This document shows, piece by piece, positions 2,336-27,474 of a stretch of 27,474 bases of DNA (position 1 is the stretch's first letter; each line of letters starts with the position of its first letter). The DNA comes from Faecalimonas sp. Lineage in GTDB: Bacteria; Bacillota_A; Clostridia; Lachnospirales; Lachnospiraceae. The stretch lies in assembly GCA_026169575.1 (NCBI GenBank), contig JAPFCT010000116.1, positions 1 through 27,474 of the forward strand. Reading direction: 5' to 3'. The position numbers and the translations under genes were made by a program. The notes under the pieces are model-generated. The model was not told where the DNA came from, ran no database searches, and saw only the letters and a program-made list of their open reading frames with translations.

Positions 2336-3175
2336 ATGTTTCAAAATGACATGAACAGAAAAATGCAATTTAGTATGGAAAAGGTAAGAAAAGCATTGGA
2401 GAAAGGAAATGGGCATACAATCCTGAGTACAGGGATTACAGGGGATGATGCGAGAATGGCAAAGGCAGCGGTGGATGCCGGAGTCAGTATGCTGGAGCCA
2501 AATCATCCGGCTCTTGCTCTGGCGAGAGGATACAAAGGAGTTACATCTATGCACGAAGCAGAAAAAATCCGACATGAGATTTCAGTTTCGCAGATGGCGG
2601 AAGTGACGAAAGGAATCCGGAACGTAGTTGGAAATGAGATCTATATTACAGTTGGAATTCCAGGAGGGTTTACGGAAATCATGCCGACGCCGATTCGAGA
2701 GGAGGATTTTATAAAAATAGCAAGAAGTGGGGCAGATGGACTTCATACGCATAAATCAAGTCTGGGGGATCTGGAAGAACTTGTAGCTGCAGCGCATAAA
2801 TATGGGCTCTGTGTAGATGCCTATATTGGTCTCCCGACAGATTTGCATACATTTGGGATTTCAGCAGAACAGCCAGAAGAAGTGGAGAAAACAGCAAAAA
2901 GAATGGAAAGTATCGGTGTCGATATGATTGGAATGATGACCGGAATGAGCTACGAAGGAGTGGAAGCAGGAAAAATACATCCATTTTTAAAAGAACGGCT
3001 CTGTGCTATGGTAGAAGCCGTACATGTTCCGACACTTGCGGAGGGAGGAATTAATTTGGAAAATTTTGAGGCATTCAAAGAGACGGGGGTAAATATTTTA
3101 GTGGTTGGCACAGCGATTGATAAAATGGCAGAGATGGCTGTGGAAAAGGCAATCCGGGGATTTTTGGCTGTTTGA
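2336..3175 (+). CDS. Phosphate-binding TIM-barrel enzyme (NanE/HisA/RPE-like superfamily)
   Basis: A 279-residue soluble protein that reads as an alternating beta/alpha barrel. Near the end, PTLAEGGINLENFEAF followed by VNILVVGTAID is the glycine-rich phosphate-binding signature of ribulose-phosphate-binding barrels such as NanE, HisA and KGPDC-type enzymes. Other likely active-site stretches are GADGLHTHKSSLGD and DMIGMMTGMSYEG. It sits between a sugar-permease-like gene and a GntR regulator, so it probably acts on the phosphorylated form of the transported compound as an epimerase, isomerase or aldolase. The reaction cannot be told from sequence. GGAGGG at 2323-2328 lies 7 bases before ATG 2336. 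Confidence 0.62.
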   Translation: MFQNDMNRKMQFSMEKVRKALEKGNGHTILSTGITGDDARMAKAAVDAGVSMLEPNHPALALARGYKGVTSMHEAEKIRHEISVSQMAEVTKGIRNVVGNEIYITVGIPGGFTEIMPTPIREEDFIKIARSGADGLHTHKSSLGDLEELVAAAHKYGLCVDAYIGLPTDLHTFGISAEQPEEVEKTAKRMESIGVDMIGMMTGMSYEGVEAGKIHPFLKERLCAMVEAVHVPTLAEGGINLENFEAFKETGVNILVVGTAIDKMAEMAVEKAIRGFLAV

Positions 3176-10244: not shown

Positions 10245-10273
10245 TCGACTTATCCCCTTTTCTGTGGTATGAT
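10245..10273 (+). promoter_or_regulatory. Promoter of the GTPase-nuclease gene
   Basis: TCGACT (10245-10250) and TATGAT (10268-10273) with a 17-base spacer and an upstream TG (extended -10). The implied leader is about 30 bases, so there is no room for the long attenuator leader known for tet(M). Confidence 0.55.
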
Positions 10274-10310: not shown

Positions 10311-13046
10311 ATGGAAAATACGTCTGGGGACAGAGAAAAAAACAGGACGAAAAAGTCGTCAAAACATATATGTGCCGGTCTGCTGGCCCATGTAGATGCA
10401 GGCAAGACAACGTTGTCGGAAAGCATGCTTTATCTGAGCGGAAGGATCCGGCAGCAGGGAAGAGTGGACCATGGGAATGCCTATCTGGACACTTATGAGC
10501 TGGAACGTGCACGGGGGATCACGATCTTTTCTAAGCAGGCAGAACTTACATTCGGCGGACTTCAGATCACACTGCTGGACACGCCGGGACATGTGGATTT
10601 CTCGGCGGAAATGGAGCGGACACTCCGGGTGCTCGATTATGCGATTCTTGTGATCAATGGGGCGGACGGTGTGCAGGGACATACGGAGACGCTGTGGAAG
10701 CTTTTGAAACAGTACCGGATCCCGGTCTTTTTGTTCATCAATAAAATGGATCAGAATGGTACAGATGCAGAGAAGCTGATGAAGGAACTGCGCGTGAAGC
10801 TTTCCGGAAACTGTATCCGGTTTGGGGAGGAAGATTCGGAGGAATTTCTGGAAAATGTGGCGATGACAGAGGAGAAGGTGCTGGAAACTTATCTGGAAAG
10901 TGGTGCGATCGATTGCAGTGAGATTTCCAGACTGATCCGGGAGCGGAAAGTATTTCCATGTTATTTCGGGTCTGCGCTAAAAAATATTGGGGTGGAGGAA
11001 TTGCTTGCCGGACTGGAATACTATACCGAAGAGCGGTCCTGCCCGGATATATTTGGCGCAAAAGTTTATAAAATAGCGCGGGATTCCCAGGGGAGCCGTC
11101 TGACCTATCTGAAAGTGACCGGGGGCGTATTAAAAGTCCGGGATCTGATCCGATATCAGGATGTGGAAGAGAAAGTCAGCCAGATCCGGATTTACTCCGG
11201 TGAGAAATACGATGCGGTCCAGGAAGTAAGTGCGGGCCGCGTGTGTGCGGTGACCGGACTTACGAAAACGTATCCGGGAGAGGGACTTGGGGCAGAGCCG
11301 CCGTCGGAGGGACCGGTGCTGACTCCGGTTTTAAATTATCAGCTGATCCTTCCGGAAGGATGTGATACGCACGGAATGCTGCTGAAGCTTCGCCAGCTTG
11401 AGGAAGAAGACCCGGAACTGCATATCGTGTGGAACGAGGAACTTGGGGAGATCCACGCGCAGCTGATGGGGGAAGTACAGACGGAGATCCTTCAGAGTAT
11501 GATCCGGGAGCGGTTTCAGACGGAGGTTTCCTTCGGGGCAGGCAATATCGTATATAAGGAGACGATCAAACGCCCGGTGGAAGGTGTCGGACATTTTGAA
11601 CCGCTGCGGCACTATGCGGAAGTGCATCTGCTTTTGGAGCCGGGAGAGCCTGGAAGCGGACTGGTATTTGCGGCAGACTGCAGTGAGGATGTGCTTGACC
11701 GGAACTGGCAGCGGCTGATTCTGACGCATCTGGCGGAGAAAGAGCACAGAGGCGTGCTGACCGGATCTGCGATCACGGATATGAAGATCACGCTCGTTGC
11801 AGGGCGGGCGCATCTGAAACATACAGAAGGAGGAGATTTCCGGCAGGCGACTTACCGTGCCATCCGTCAGGGGTTAAAATCGACGGAGAGCGTGCTTTTG
11901 GAACCGTACTATGAATTTCGGATGGAGATCCCGTCAGAATTTGTCGGAAGGGCGCTGACCGATATCCAGAGAATGTCAGGAGAGTTTCAGCCGCCGGATA
12001 CAGAGGGCGATTTTTCGGTGATCACCGGGAGCGCTCCGGTGTCTGAGATGCGGGATTATCAGCTGGAAGTGACAAGCTACACGAAAGGAAGAGGAAGGCT
12101 GTTCTGTACTTTGAAGGGATATGAACCTTGTCACAATGCGGAGGAAGTGACAGAGCAGATCGGTTATGATTCCGAGCGGGATCTGGACAATCCGACCGGA
12201 TCGGTTTTCTGTGCACATGGCGCCGGATTTAATGTCAGCTGGGAGCAGGTACCGGAATATATGCATTTGGAGTATGCATGGAAACCTGAGTCAGAGGAAG
12301 AACAATCGGCAGATGCGGAGAAAAAAGAGCAGAGAGATCAGCAGGGAGTAAGACCCGGAAATCGCTTTGCAGGAAGCGCCGAAGAGGAGAAAGAGCTGGA
12401 GGAGATTTTTCTTCGCACCTATGGAAAAATTGAGCGGAGACGCCCGGTTGCCGAGCGGAGAGTAGAGAGTCCGGAGGAGCGGAAAAAACGAATCCGGAAA
12501 GAGCAGCTGGAAGAATATCTGCTTGTGGATGGCTACAATGTGATTTTTGCATGGGAGGATCTGAAAGAACTCGCTAAAGTCAATATCGAAGGGGCGAGGA
12601 ATAAACTGATGGATGTACTGTGCAACTATCAGGGATTTAAGAAATGCAATCTGATTCTTGTGTTTGATGCGTACAAGGTACAAGGGCAGGAATTAGGAGT
12701 TCAGAAATACCATAACATTCATGTGGTGTATACGAAAGAAGCGGAGACCGCAGATCAGTATATTGAAAAAGTTGTCCATGAAATCGGAAGAAAATACCAT
12801 GTGACCGTTGCCACCTCGGATAATGTTGAGCAGGTTGTAACACTGGGACAAGGCGGGAAGCTGCTGTCAGCCCGGGAGCTGCGGAAAGAGGTGGAAGAAG
12901 TGCAGCGCCAGATAAGGGAGGAGTACCTGAATCGTCCGCAGAAAGGGAAAAACTATCTATTTGATTACCTCGATGAAGAGATTTCGGGTCGGATGGAAGA
13001 GGTCCGACTTGGGAAAAAAGAGGTAAAGGATGTCTGGGGAGAGTGA
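10311..13046 (+). CDS. Tet(M)-like translational GTPase fused to a YacP/Rae1 NYN nuclease domain
   Basis: A 911-residue protein. Residues about 18-160 are the G domain with AHVDAGKT (26-33), RGIT (68-71), DTPGH (90-94) and NKMD (144-147). EF-G/Tet-like domains II-V follow to about 660. A charged linker (about 665-733) leads to a complete NYN/YacP domain (735 to about 880): LLVDGYNVIFAW with Asp740, LVFDAYKV, TKEAETADQYIEK and ATSDNVEQ. Known family facts: ribosome-protection GTPases bind the A site, and B. subtilis Rae1 (YacP) cuts mRNA in the ribosome. Domain IV aligned to the Tet(M) SPV loop reads AHLKHTEGG (500-508), so tetracycline rescue is doubtful. ATG 10311 has AAAGGGG upstream; the frame from 10269 starts within the -10 box. 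The gene overlaps the next one's spacing region. The nuclease fusion reads directly through with no frameshift. Confidence 0.88.
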   Translation: MENTSGDREKNRTKKSSKHICAGLLAHVDAGKTTLSESMLYLSGRIRQQGRVDHGNAYLDTYELERARGITIFSKQAELTFGGLQITLLDTPGHVDFSAEMERTLRVLDYAILVINGADGVQGHTETLWKLLKQYRIPVFLFINKMDQNGTDAEKLMKELRVKLSGNCIRFGEEDSEEFLENVAMTEEKVLETYLESGAIDCSEISRLIRERKVFPCYFGSALKNIGVEELLAGLEYYTEERSCPDIFGAKVYKIARDSQGSRLTYLKVTGGVLKVRDLIRYQDVEEKVSQIRIYSGEKYDAVQEVSAGRVCAVTGLTKTYPGEGLGAEPPSEGPVLTPVLNYQLILPEGCDTHGMLLKLRQLEEEDPELHIVWNEELGEIHAQLMGEVQTEILQSMIRERFQTEVSFGAGNIVYKETIKRPVEGVGHFEPLRHYAEVHLLLEPGEPGSGLVFAADCSEDVLDRNWQRLILTHLAEKEHRGVLTGSAITDMKITLVAGRAHLKHTEGGDFRQATYRAIRQGLKSTESVLLEPYYEFRMEIPSEFVGRALTDIQRMSGEFQPPDTEGDFSVITGSAPVSEMRDYQLEVTSYTKGRGRLFCTLKGYEPCHNAEEVTEQIGYDSERDLDNPTGSVFCAHGAGFNVSWEQVPEYMHLEYAWKPESEEEQSADAEKKEQRDQQGVRPGNRFAGSAEEEKELEEIFLRTYGKIERRRPVAERRVESPEERKKRIRKEQLEEYLLVDGYNVIFAWEDLKELAKVNIEGARNKLMDVLCNYQGFKKCNLILVFDAYKVQGQELGVQKYHNIHVVYTKEAETADQYIEKVVHEIGRKYHVTVATSDNVEQVVTLGQGGKLLSARELRKEVEEVQRQIREEYLNRPQKGKNYLFDYLDEEISGRMEEVRLGKKEVKDVWGE

Positions 13047-24793: not shown

Positions 24794-24827
24794 GAAATTA
24801 AAGAAATAGATTTGGAGAGTGCAAAAG

Positions 24828-26018
24828 ATGGAACGTAAAGTAGGTACCATATCAAGAGGAATCCGCTGCCCGATCATCAGAGAAGGCGACAACCTCGCAA
24901 ATATTGTAGTAGAAAGCGTATTAGATGCAGCAGCAAGTGAAGGGTTTGAGTTAAGAGACAGAGATGTTATCTCCCTGACAGAGTCGATTGTTGCAAGATC
25001 ACAGGGAAACTACGCTTCTGTTGAGGCAATCGCAAGCGATGTGAGAGCAAAATTAGGCGGCGAGACAATCGGTGTTATTTTCCCGATTTTATCAAGAAAC
25101 CGTTTTGCGATCTGCTTAAAGGGAATTGCGATGGGCGCAAAGAAAGTAGTTCTTATGCTGAGCTATCCAAGCGATGAAGTTGGAAATCAGCTTGTATCTT
25201 TAGACAAGCTGGATGAAGCAGGAATCAATCCATACAGCGATGTACTTACTTTGGAGAAATACAGAGAACTGTTCGGAGAGAATAAGCATGAATTTACAGG
25301 GGTAGATTATGTAGAATACTACGGACAGCTGATCAGAGAAGCAGGTGCAGAAGTAGAGATTATCTTTGCAAACAATCCGAGAACAATCTTAGATTATACA
25401 AAGAATGTAATGACTTGTGATATCCACACAAGAGCAAGAACAAAACGGATCCTCAAAGCGGCAGGTGCAGAGCGCGTGTGCGGAATGGATGACATCCTGA
25501 CAGCGCCGGTGGACGGAAGCGGATGCAATGAGAGATATGGTCTCTTAGGATCTAACAAGTCTACAGAAGGCATGATCAAGTTATTCCCAAGAGAATGCCG
25601 CGACCTTGTAGATGAGATCCAGAAACAGATCTTAGACAAGACTGGAAAACATGTGGAAGTCATGGTATACGGAGACGGTGCATTTAAAGATCCTCAGGGA
25701 AAAATCTGGGAATTAGCCGATCCGGTCGTATCACCGGCATTCACAGACGGACTTCGTGGAACTCCGAACGAAGTAAAATTAAAATACCTTGCAGACAACG
25801 ATTTCAAAGATTTAAGCGGAGAAGCTTTAAAAGAAGCAATTTCCAAGAGGATCAAAGAAAAGAGCGACAACCTGGTAGGAGATATGGCTTCTCAGGGAAC
25901 AACACCGAGACAGCTTACAGACCTGATCGGTTCTCTCTGTGACCTTACAAGTGGTTCCGGAGACAAAGGAACACCGGTTGTATTAGTGCAGGGATACTTT
26001 GACAACTATACAAATTAG
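24828..26018 (+). CDS. CofE-like protein (coenzyme F420-0 glutamyl ligase family)
   Basis: A 396-residue protein that resembles the CofE/FbiB-N fold: an early REGDNLANIVVESVLDAA, the strand-turn LRDRDVISLTESIVARSQGNY, SRNRFAICLKGIAMGAKKVVLML, then DGSGCNERYGLLGSNKSTEGMIKLFP and a C-terminal VVLVQGYFDNYTN. Clostridia of this type are not known to make F420, so the true reaction is likely another gamma-glutamyl or amide ligation; the name is by homology only. It is longer than archaeal CofE (about 250). ATG 24828 is chosen over GTG 24819 because GGAGAG (24814-24819) then has 8-base spacing. The codon choice looks like that of well-expressed genes, matching the strong promoter. It has its own terminator. 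Confidence 0.75.
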   Translation: MERKVGTISRGIRCPIIREGDNLANIVVESVLDAAASEGFELRDRDVISLTESIVARSQGNYASVEAIASDVRAKLGGETIGVIFPILSRNRFAICLKGIAMGAKKVVLMLSYPSDEVGNQLVSLDKLDEAGINPYSDVLTLEKYRELFGENKHEFTGVDYVEYYGQLIREAGAEVEIIFANNPRTILDYTKNVMTCDIHTRARTKRILKAAGAERVCGMDDILTAPVDGSGCNERYGLLGSNKSTEGMIKLFPRECRDLVDEIQKQILDKTGKHVEVMVYGDGAFKDPQGKIWELADPVVSPAFTDGLRGTPNEVKLKYLADNDFKDLSGEALKEAISKRIKEKSDNLVGDMASQGTTPRQLTDLIGSLCDLTSGSGDKGTPVVLVQGYFDNYTN

Positions 26019-26192: not shown

Positions 26193-26219
26193 TGTAATTG
26201 TTGAATTTAGGTGATTGTT

Positions 26220-26813
26220 ATGCAGATAAATCCTACTATATTAGAAAAAATAAAAAGTAATAATAACATGATAACTACAGCACAAGTTAGTGAATTGGGC
26301 TTTTCTCGTTCCATTCTGACAAAGTATGTAAAAGAAGGAGTGCTTGAGCGCAGCAGGCAAGGAGTGTATATTCTTTCTGACTCCGTGGAGGATGATATGT
26401 ATACATTGATGATGCGTTCGGAAAGAATTATTTTTTCCCATGACACAGCATTGTTTTTAAATGGTTTATCTGAAAGGATACCGTTTACACATTCTGTGAC
26501 AATTCCGAGTAATACATCACTTCCAAATTCTCTGATCGGTGAATGCCAGTGTTACTATATAAAGCAGGAACTACATCAACTTGGAGTTATTAAGAAGAAA
26601 AATACTTTGGGGAATGAAGTCCGATGTTACAATATGGAGCGGACTATCTGTGATTTGCTACGTTCTCGCAGCAGACTTGATGAAGAAACTGTTATCAGTG
26701 CAATAAAAAATTATGCTGTATCGTCTCAAAAAAACTTGAATTTACTGGCTGCTTATTCGGCAAAGTTTGGGGTAGGTAAGATGTTAAAAAGATACATGGA
26801 GGTTTTGTTATGA
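26220..26813 (+). CDS. abiEi: AbiEi-type antitoxin / transcriptional autoregulator
   Basis: A 197-residue protein. Residues about 5-55 are the AbiEi N-terminal winged helix (MITTAQVSELGFSRSILTKYVKEGVLERSRQGVYIL). The remainder matches the antitoxin body, with FSHDTALFLNGLSERIP, VTIPSNTSLPNSL and RCYNMERTICDLLRSRSRLDEE. In type IV AbiE systems this protein neutralises the toxin without forming a stable complex and represses the operon. ATG 26220 is chosen over GTG 26211 because AGGTGA (26209-26214) is 5 bases away. The stop overlaps the toxin start (ATGA). The base composition is more AT-rich than the neighbours, as is common in mobile defence genes. Confidence 0.9.
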   Translation: MQINPTILEKIKSNNNMITTAQVSELGFSRSILTKYVKEGVLERSRQGVYILSDSVEDDMYTLMMRSERIIFSHDTALFLNGLSERIPFTHSVTIPSNTSLPNSLIGECQCYYIKQELHQLGVIKKKNTLGNEVRCYNMERTICDLLRSRSRLDEETVISAIKNYAVSSQKNLNLLAAYSAKFGVGKMLKRYMEVLL

Positions 26814-27474
26814 GTTCCAAGGCAATGAGTTTAAAAGGAAGAATTAAAAATTATGCGAAGAATAATAACATTGCTGCCCAAGTTGTCCTTCAAAACTATA
26901 TGTTTGAACGTTTTTTGGAAAGATTATCTATGTCAGAATATAGTGAAAAATTTGTTGTGAAGGGAGGCATGCTGATTGCGGCTATTGTTGGTCTTGATAC
27001 TAGATCTACAATGGATTTAGATACAACTTTACGAAATTTGCCCTTGACAGAAGAGCAGATTTTCCTATCACTTAGTTTAATTTGTAAGATAGATCTGAAT
27101 GATGATGTTTCTTTTGTGATTAAATCCATCGTTCCTATCCGTAAGGATGATATATATGGCGGATATTGCGTAAGAATGGATGCGATTTATGATACAATTG
27201 TTACCCCGCTTTCTATAGATATTTCTATAGGAGATATTATTACTCCGGAAGCCGTAAAATATGAGTTTGGAGGTATTTTTGATGAGAATGTCAAAATTGT
27301 TTTATGGGGATATAACATTGAGACTGTAATGGCAGAAAAAGTGGAAACGATTCTGAGTCGGGGAGTATTTACAACTCGTCCGAGAGATTTTTATGATGTA
27401 TATATTCTTGCGACTACTCAAAAATATGATAAAAAGGTTTTTAAGGAAGCTTTGAAAGCTACGGCAATCCATAG
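26810..27474 (+). CDS. abiEii: AbiEii-type nucleotidyltransferase toxin (partial, runs off window)
   Basis: The first 221 residues are visible, without a stop. The nucleotidyltransferase core shows FVVKGGMLIAA (about 48-58), RSTMDLDTT (65-73) with Asp69 and Asp71 as metal-ligand candidates, SIDISIGD (135-142) and MAEKVETILSRGVFTTRPRDFYDVYIL (174-200), the full AbiEii motif set. AbiEii toxins transfer nucleotides and cause growth arrest; related systems abort phage infection. Translation is coupled to the antitoxin by the ATGA overlap, and GGAGG (26798-26802) lies 7 bases upstream. Residues at key sites look intact, so it is probably functional if the unseen C-terminus is whole. Confidence 0.92.
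   Translation, partial: MSSKAMSLKGRIKNYAKNNNIAAQVVLQNYMFERFLERLSMSEYSEKFVVKGGMLIAAIVGLDTRSTMDLDTTLRNLPLTEEQIFLSLSLICKIDLNDDVSFVIKSIVPIRKDDIYGGYCVRMDAIYDTIVTPLSIDISIGDIITPEAVKYEFGGIFDENVKIVLWGYNIETVMAEKVETILSRGVFTTRPRDFYDVYILATTQKYDKKVFKEALKATAIH

Follow-up and report, generated by a model that had tools for sequence, protein, structure and literature searches.

The window analysed here is a 27,474-nucleotide contig of Faecalimonas sp. (JAPFCT010000116.1, assembly GCA_026169575.1), and gene coordinates are given as window positions. A single open frame within it (ATG at 10311, stop at 13046) encodes a protein of 911 residues in which a five-domain EF-G/Tet-type GTPase is joined to a YacP/Rae1 NYN nuclease domain. 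Rae1 of B. subtilis is described, in the available portions of three papers, as a translation-dependent endoribonuclease of the ribosomal aminoacyl (A) site (PMC6613710, PMC12320835, PMC10100781). The fusion is probably the cell's own Rae1, which a translational GTPase brings into ribosomes to cut A-site messenger RNA (mRNA), and the cutting would then come under the control of GTP. On sequence grounds the GTPase half falls outside the Tet resistance proteins, in a distinct clade derived from EF-G that also holds unfused relatives. Judged by gene content and position, the fusion has taken over as the cell's Rae1 in most of the fused genomes counted, and 97 of 120 genomes in the family of Faecalimonas umbilicata carry it, both apparently new observations.

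The gene and its parts are arranged as follows (position, strand, feature; E, expectation value).

10245..10273, + strand: promoter-like site of the extended -10 type, ending 38 bases 5' of the ATG; a similar stretch precedes the gene of locus L001
10311..13046, + strand: whole gene for the 911-residue GTPase-NYN fusion protein (open frame, Pfam)
10362..11024, + strand: G domain, residues 18-238 (Pfam GTP_EFTU, E 2.8e-51), with P-loop AHVDAGKTT, DTPGH and NKMD
11058..11267, + strand: EF-G domain II, residues 250-319 (Pfam EF-G_D2)
11364..11537, + strand: EF-G domain III, residues 352-409 (Pfam EFG_III)
11544..11882, + strand: EF-G domain IV, residues 412-524 (Pfam EFG_IV), the best conserved region
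11811..11843, + strand: domain IV tip loop HLKHTEGGDFR, residues 501-511, diagnostic of the clade of fused and unfused GTPases
11892..12140, + strand: EF-G domain V, residues 528-610 (Pfam EFG_C)
12147..12290, + strand: C-terminal extension with GSVFC motif, residues 613-660, common to unfused relatives
12291..12515, + strand: linker, residues 661-735, mostly without confident structure, with a short helix at 691-704
12519..13007, + strand: YacP/Rae1 NYN nuclease domain, residues 737-899 (Pfam NYN_YacP, E 4.2e-54)
12528..12821, + strand: stretch of conserved NYN residues (D740, N743, D786, D815, E819, D837; alignment of fused and stand-alone rows)

The open frame and the Pfam assignments confirm what an earlier note on this DNA had read from the letters, one frame joining an EF-G/Tet-like GTPase with its G motifs to a YacP/Rae1 NYN domain. 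The G motifs and domains I to V follow one another in order, as in members of the EF2/EF-G family. The NYN half scores 183.4 bits with NYN_YacP (PF05991; cut-off 24.6), covering profile positions 1-165 of 166, and matches B. subtilis YacP (5mq9) with an E of 4.4e-28. A structure model predicts two strands in the C-terminal extension (631-635 and 638-642) and gives predicted local distance difference test scores below 50 in three stretches of the linker (663-666, 673-690 and 707-731). A linker motif, ELxxIFxxTYG, is found in 51 of 100 fused alignment rows and in none of 16 unfused rows. Among the matches listed, a fold search with the whole model returned only EF-G-type chains, and is uninformative on the NYN half.

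Firstly, the two halves are maintained together. In the set of loci compared (160 matched stretches gave 130 relatives, of which 80 were retained) the GTPase and NYN share one open frame in all 80, at 789-994 residues, with three loci (L055, L072 and L078) cut by contig ends; because each locus keeps both parts in one frame, chance joining is excluded. The P-loop, DTPGH and NKxD motifs are retained, and across the fused rows the GTPase motifs and tip loop are near invariant. Of 104 fused rows, 103-104 retain each of the six NYN residues D740, N743, D786, D815, E819 and D837 (one row is gapped at these residues and at least five repeat a gene from another locus), and all 46 rows of stand-alone Rae1 have them too. 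The acidic residues that the earlier note had reported as intact are thus intact across homologues as well, and Asp740, which it had proposed to alter, is the first of the six. Between the window protein and the fusion of F. umbilicata (91% identity), a single pair, the ratio of nonsynonymous to synonymous substitution rates (dN/dS) is 0.083 overall; by region it is 0.142 (G domain), 0.051 (domains II-III), 0.013 (domain IV), 0.058 (domain V), 0.144 (C-terminal extension), 0.129 (linker), 0.010 (NYN, residues 736-880), 0.083 (tail) and 1.35 (first 17 codons). The low values of domain IV and NYN indicate that both working ends are under purifying selection in this pair. Mean column conservation over 81 rows, taken in eight regions, is highest in domain IV (0.838) and lowest in the linker (0.372 for residues 681-735). 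The proposition that conservation peaks in domain IV and NYN was accordingly dropped, as it holds for the one-pair dN/dS and fails over the 81 rows.

Secondly, the fusion is widespread, and the genomes that carry it seldom hold another Rae1. Fusions occur in loci labelled Lachnospiraceae, Oscillospiraceae, Anaerovoracaceae and Desulfitobacteriaceae, and the counts of 80/80 loci and 97/120 family genomes bear out the wide conservation for which the earlier note had asked a survey. In a Bacillota sample of 299 genomes PF05991 is found in 155, 18 of them with the match in frames of 863-966 residues, and none of these 18 fused genomes has a second PF05991 match (likewise 14/14 in another count). 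The GTPase profile (E 1e-125) marks 23 genomes of this sample: the 18 fused, three with lower-scoring Tet-like proteins only, and two with unfused GTPases (G208, 651 residues; G233, 657 residues), both of which also have a stand-alone Rae1. Within the F. umbilicata family PF05991 is present in 108 genomes, in frames of at least 516 residues in 97 and in short frames in 11; one short frame is cut by a contig end (G407), one is a split frame overlapping the GTPase frame (G354) and nine are stand-alone, five of these nine genomes having an unfused GTPase elsewhere (in G411 a 541-residue piece with a stop). In an early set from the family the GTPase was absent, at E 1e-100, from all 12 genomes without Rae1. 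A sample of 341 genomes from the class of F. umbilicata has the GTPase at E <=1e-150 in 140, comprising 115 frames of at least 760 residues (counting G791, which meets a contig end), 19 unfused frames (645-729 residues) and six that are cut or broken (G625, G700, G748, G876, G886 and G894). PF05991 is present in 218/341 among the matches listed, in a search that scored the best few candidates per genome and for which genome completeness is not given; 12 of the 19 genomes with unfused GTPases have a stand-alone Rae1. A strict partnership of GTPase and Rae1, perfect at first (10/10 and 5/5 genomes with the unfused GTPase had Rae1), was abandoned after the class sample (12/19). Fusion relatives also turn up under unexpected labels. 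A contig labelled 'Calditrichales bacterium' (L054) carries a fusion nested among those of Clostridia, being either a mislabelled genome or a recent transfer, and two gut 'Bacteriophage sp.' records hold unannotated relatives (MT835563.1, 5409-7958, 92% of the length at 58% identity; MT835514.1, 15267-17864, 96% of the length at 50% identity), both of which are possibly host DNA filed as phage.

The position of rae1 is consistent with a transfer of its role to the fusion. With rlmB located by TIGR00186, and sigH, mrnC and cysS identified by eye, rae1 is a neighbour of rlmB in four of five unfused genomes examined and in none of seven fused. The order is rlmB-rae1-sigH in G208, G233 and G366, and rlmB-rae1 with other genes before sigH in G336, while in G371 rae1 is elsewhere. 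The seven fused genomes (G001-G006 and G009) have no rae1 beside rlmB, which in G001-G004 and G009 is directly followed by sigH, and in all seven the fusion gene is located away from rlmB. Fused GTPases form one clade (support 100), plus two rows, a plasmid copy from Ligilactobacillus salivarius and G791, whose frame stops at the contig end inside the linker motif; 13 of the 19 unfused GTPases of the class sample, including all seven from genomes without Rae1, were placed in the GTPase tree and fall outside the fused clade. Descent of the NYN half from the rae1 beside rlmB, as opposed to another NYN family, is favoured by the missing rlmB-side copy and by the NYN tree, where fused rows group with stand-alone rows from their own family; this tree is short and does not prove that descent. 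A single fusion event fits the trees and, apparently for the first time, is supported by them. The simplest history, likewise supported, would be that rae1 was set behind the GTPase gene once and that the copy beside rlmB was then lost in most lines. We considered a strict replacement of stand-alone Rae1 and rejected it, as the replacement is near but not absolute (at least one fused genome, G896, has both genes).

It seems unlikely that the NYN domain is a passenger, the two halves doing unrelated jobs with only a promoter in common. Each half does occur alone in other genomes, the linker is long, variable and without confident structure, and one lineage seems to have dropped NYN; however, the fusion is found under four family labels, the rlmB-side copy is missing in 7/7 fused genomes examined (though present in G896), and both partners come from ribosome-acting families.

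Thirdly, the GTPase half separates from the Tet proteins. The NCBIfam model tet_protect (NF012153) gives the fusion 435.3 bits, below its cut-off of 775. In a tree with EF-G, Tet(M), Tet(O), Tet(S), tet(36), an OtrA-like protein and TetB(P) as references, fused and unfused members form one group (Shimodaira-Hasegawa-like approximate likelihood ratio test, SH-aLRT, 100), the Tet proteins with TetB(P) form another (100), and EF-G is a clade separate from the fusion-family GTPases. A first tree agrees on the split between the fused/unfused family and the Tet proteins; both are quick trees with SH-aLRT only, and the program warned of long branches (L194 and L179) and of the join with EF-G. TetB(P), entertained as a hidden founding member of the fusion clade, groups with the other Tet proteins and was rejected as such; its tip loop reads SPASTPADF. 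The tip motif KHTxGGDF is present in 93/100 fused rows (which include at least one repeated gene) and 15/16 unfused rows, and in 0/6 Tet, 0/5 third-type (described below) and 0/7 EF-G rows, whereas the Tet motif SPxSTxxDF is present in 5/6 Tet rows and in 0/100 fused and 0/16 unfused rows. Four of the seven fused exceptions differ at the lysine only, and L135, L137 and L141 have other loops. The C-terminal extension motif (GSVFC/SxFC) has a similar distribution, occurring in 94/100 fused and 15/16 unfused rows and in none of the 18 rows of Tet, third-type and EF-G proteins. Ordinary EF-G genes are present besides the fusion-family GTPase in the four genomes checked. The description 'Tet-type' in the earlier note consequently stands for the fold and falls for membership, and its mention of drug-blocked ribosomes finds no specific support, because the protein lies outside the Tet clade, below the tet_protect cut-off and without the Tet tip loop. 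A third Tet-like type, from Bacillota genomes (L144-L147 and L179), joins the Tet side with a support of 98, having been unresolved in the first tree, and has the tip loop [W/M]HTHPxDF in four of five rows.

That a GTPase arm delivers an A-site mRNA nuclease to ribosomes is still the best reading, and one that the sequences moderately favour. TetM is reported, in the portion of the source available, to overlap the site of EF-G and to extend to the A site, with Pro-509 of its domain IV loop sitting in the drug site at C1054 (PMC8161019). In its GTP form the fusion GTPase would enter the factor site and, on a paused ribosome whose A site is empty, push its KHTxGGDF tip into that site; hydrolysis of GTP would loosen the GTPase, the NYN domain on its linker of about 75 residues would cut the mRNA in or beside the A site, and the cut would free the ribosome for rescue. 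Because domain IV and docked Rae1 would compete for the same A site, a hand-over is likelier than joint binding; cutting from the mRNA entry side is an alternative to hand-over, and the long linker permits either. More tentatively, and with doubt prevailing, the fusion might be a one-chain bacterial counterpart of no-go decay, in which a GTPase of an undescribed EF-G-like subfamily recognises ribosomes paused with the A site vacant and, through its GTP cycle, passes that site to the tethered nuclease, GTP hydrolysis timing and proofreading the mRNA cutting; it might then be the standing stalled-ribosome nuclease in most genomes of the family and in many other Clostridia, and the unfused GTPase a separate, unnamed ribosome rescue or release factor.

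Several observations weigh against this reading. The structure model leaves the placement of NYN unfixed (predicted template modelling score 0.64), and mean conservation of NYN (0.667) is below that of each of the five GTPase domains (0.700-0.838; 81 rows). Non-fused genomes with PF05991 lack a close GTPase in 135/137 cases in the Bacillota sample, as do four of the nine stand-alone-NYN genomes of the F. umbilicata family (three with none, G380 with the third type only), and as many such genomes exist Rae1 evidently works without the GTPase. Conversely, 7/19 unfused-GTPase genomes of the class sample have no PF05991 match (G605, G609, G635, G650, G751, G774 and G899), so that the unfused GTPase seems to have a Rae1-independent job. 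At least five of the 115 fused class-sample genomes have two PF05991 matches (G702, G705, G769, G809 and G896), G702 having two fusions and G896 a fusion plus a rae1 between rlmB and sigH, which is either an intermediate stage or a gain made afterwards. Unfused L. salivarius plasmid copies, without NYN, fall inside the fused clade. Finally, in a free NYN tree (150 columns) nine stand-alone rows from the same family fall among the fused ones; with the fused rows held together the likelihood is 22.9 better and the tree is not rejected (approximately unbiased test, p 0.818), which is no proof of a clade.

In unfused genomes rae1 sits with rlmB and with mrnC, a gene of 23S maturation, and the fusion could instead serve ribosomal or transfer RNA maturation or the checking of ribosome assembly, its GTPase binding an immature or idle ribosome while NYN trims RNA. 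An earlier proposal for NYN domains, cited in the portion available of PMC4342817, runs in this direction, and loss of yacO or rae1 in B. subtilis is reported, in part of another source, to suppress efp via one pathway (PMC6613710). We nonetheless regard this as improbable, since what is available on B. subtilis Rae1 has it cutting A-site mRNA in dependence on translation, and the conserved domain IV tip better suits an A-site factor.

Upstream, the frame is already open from 10269, the first mechanical start, and runs to 13046; GAAAGGGG lies directly 5' of the ATG at 10311. The promoter-like site is weak, four such sites occurring in the scanned stretch where 3.9 are expected. No conserved operon partner was found in 76 of the 80 loci, with four frames considered on each side, and no RNA leader matches Rfam in the window at gathering scores. 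A role in anti-phage defence was set aside, the sole PADLOC match to it being a stray one (ThsB, 17.8 bits) that was disregarded. Elsewhere in the window, an AbiEi-type antitoxin gene lies at 26211-26813 (PADLOC AbiEi, 210.7 bits) and is followed by a frame from ~26810 to the window end at 27474 that by eye resembles an AbiEii-type partner. Positions 24819-26018 encode a F420-0:gamma-glutamyl ligase family protein (PF01996, E 4.5e-57), in a bacterium whose group is not known for coenzyme F420. A 525-residue protein encoded at 697-2274 is without a Pfam match at E 0.001 and by eye has a membrane-spanning C-terminal part; an aldolase-like gene, also recognised by eye, adjoins it (2336-3175).

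The architecture is real, as the earlier note held, but not new: the available part of Atkinson 2015 (PMC4342817) reports, from ten species of Clostridiales, Tet proteins that carry a YacP-like NYN domain and proposes a novel resistance mechanism with RNase activity. NYN or YacP is not mentioned in the portion available of PMC1780047. We found no later functional work on the fusion in the literature and no described function; Leroy 2017, Condon 2018 (on Rae1 distribution, which may mention the fusion), Deves 2023 and Gilet 2025 are known to us via citing papers only. The database names are generic, as had been anticipated ('translation factor GTPase family protein', 'NYN domain-containing protein', 'small GTP-binding protein'). 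Resistance, in which the GTPase would dislodge a drug from the ribosome and NYN cut RNA, has in its favour the suggestion in print (PMC4342817, as far as available), top scores to Tet proteins among NCBIfam models and solved structures, and TetM/W/O/S family labels on fusion-family members in several plasmid records, but is very unlikely given the score of 435 bits against 775, the position outside the clade of Tet(M), Tet(O), Tet(S), tet(36), the OtrA-like protein and TetB(P), another conserved loop where SPxSTxxDF is absent from all 116 fused and unfused rows, carriage in 97/120 family genomes without a conserved neighbour, and the presence in F. umbilicata (G001) of a Tet(O)-like gene (L204) as well. 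The same label is found in most of the L. salivarius records listed, where an unfused plasmid member lies at 4998-6917 of L188. Such labels on members of the clade may be false resistance calls.

Several points appear to be new: the GTPase stands apart from the resistance proteins, it has unfused relatives that branch outside the fused clade, rae1 is missing next to rlmB in fused genomes, and most members of the family carry the fusion. The route of Rae1 into the A site of paused ribosomes is, in the literature as partly available, still a proposal; evolution has joined Rae1 to a GTPase of an A-site-entering family in most genomes of a gut-bacterial family. Should the coupling prove real, the fusion would be a GTP-controlled nuclease of mRNA quality control, giving a handle on the timing of Rae1 and an undescribed subfamily of translational GTPases.

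Among known systems, the Tet-NYN set of Atkinson 2015 has the same architecture, and the window protein is one of this set by architecture alone; the set is filed there under Tet, in the part available, whereas here it is a clade outside the resistance proteins and would represent the relocated rae1 of most fused genomes. The NYN domain aligns with B. subtilis Rae1/YacP (5mq8, 5mq9) over residues 3-167 of 181 and has the same conserved acidic residues; stand-alone Rae1, however, is a free protein without a GTPase, in frames of ~170-210 residues, while that of the fusion is attached to one. Tet(M) and Tet(O) have an EF-G-like GTPase with G motifs in common with the fusion (~30% identity; TetB(P), 34%) but differ in tip loop, C-terminus and place in the tree, and lack NYN. 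EF-G shares the fold and domain order and differs in tip loops and clade. Finally, no-go decay of the Hbs1/Dom34 type has in common the idea of a stalled-ribosome GTPase tied to mRNA cutting, an analogy only, as Hbs1/Dom34 belongs to another GTPase subfamily and is without a fused nuclease.

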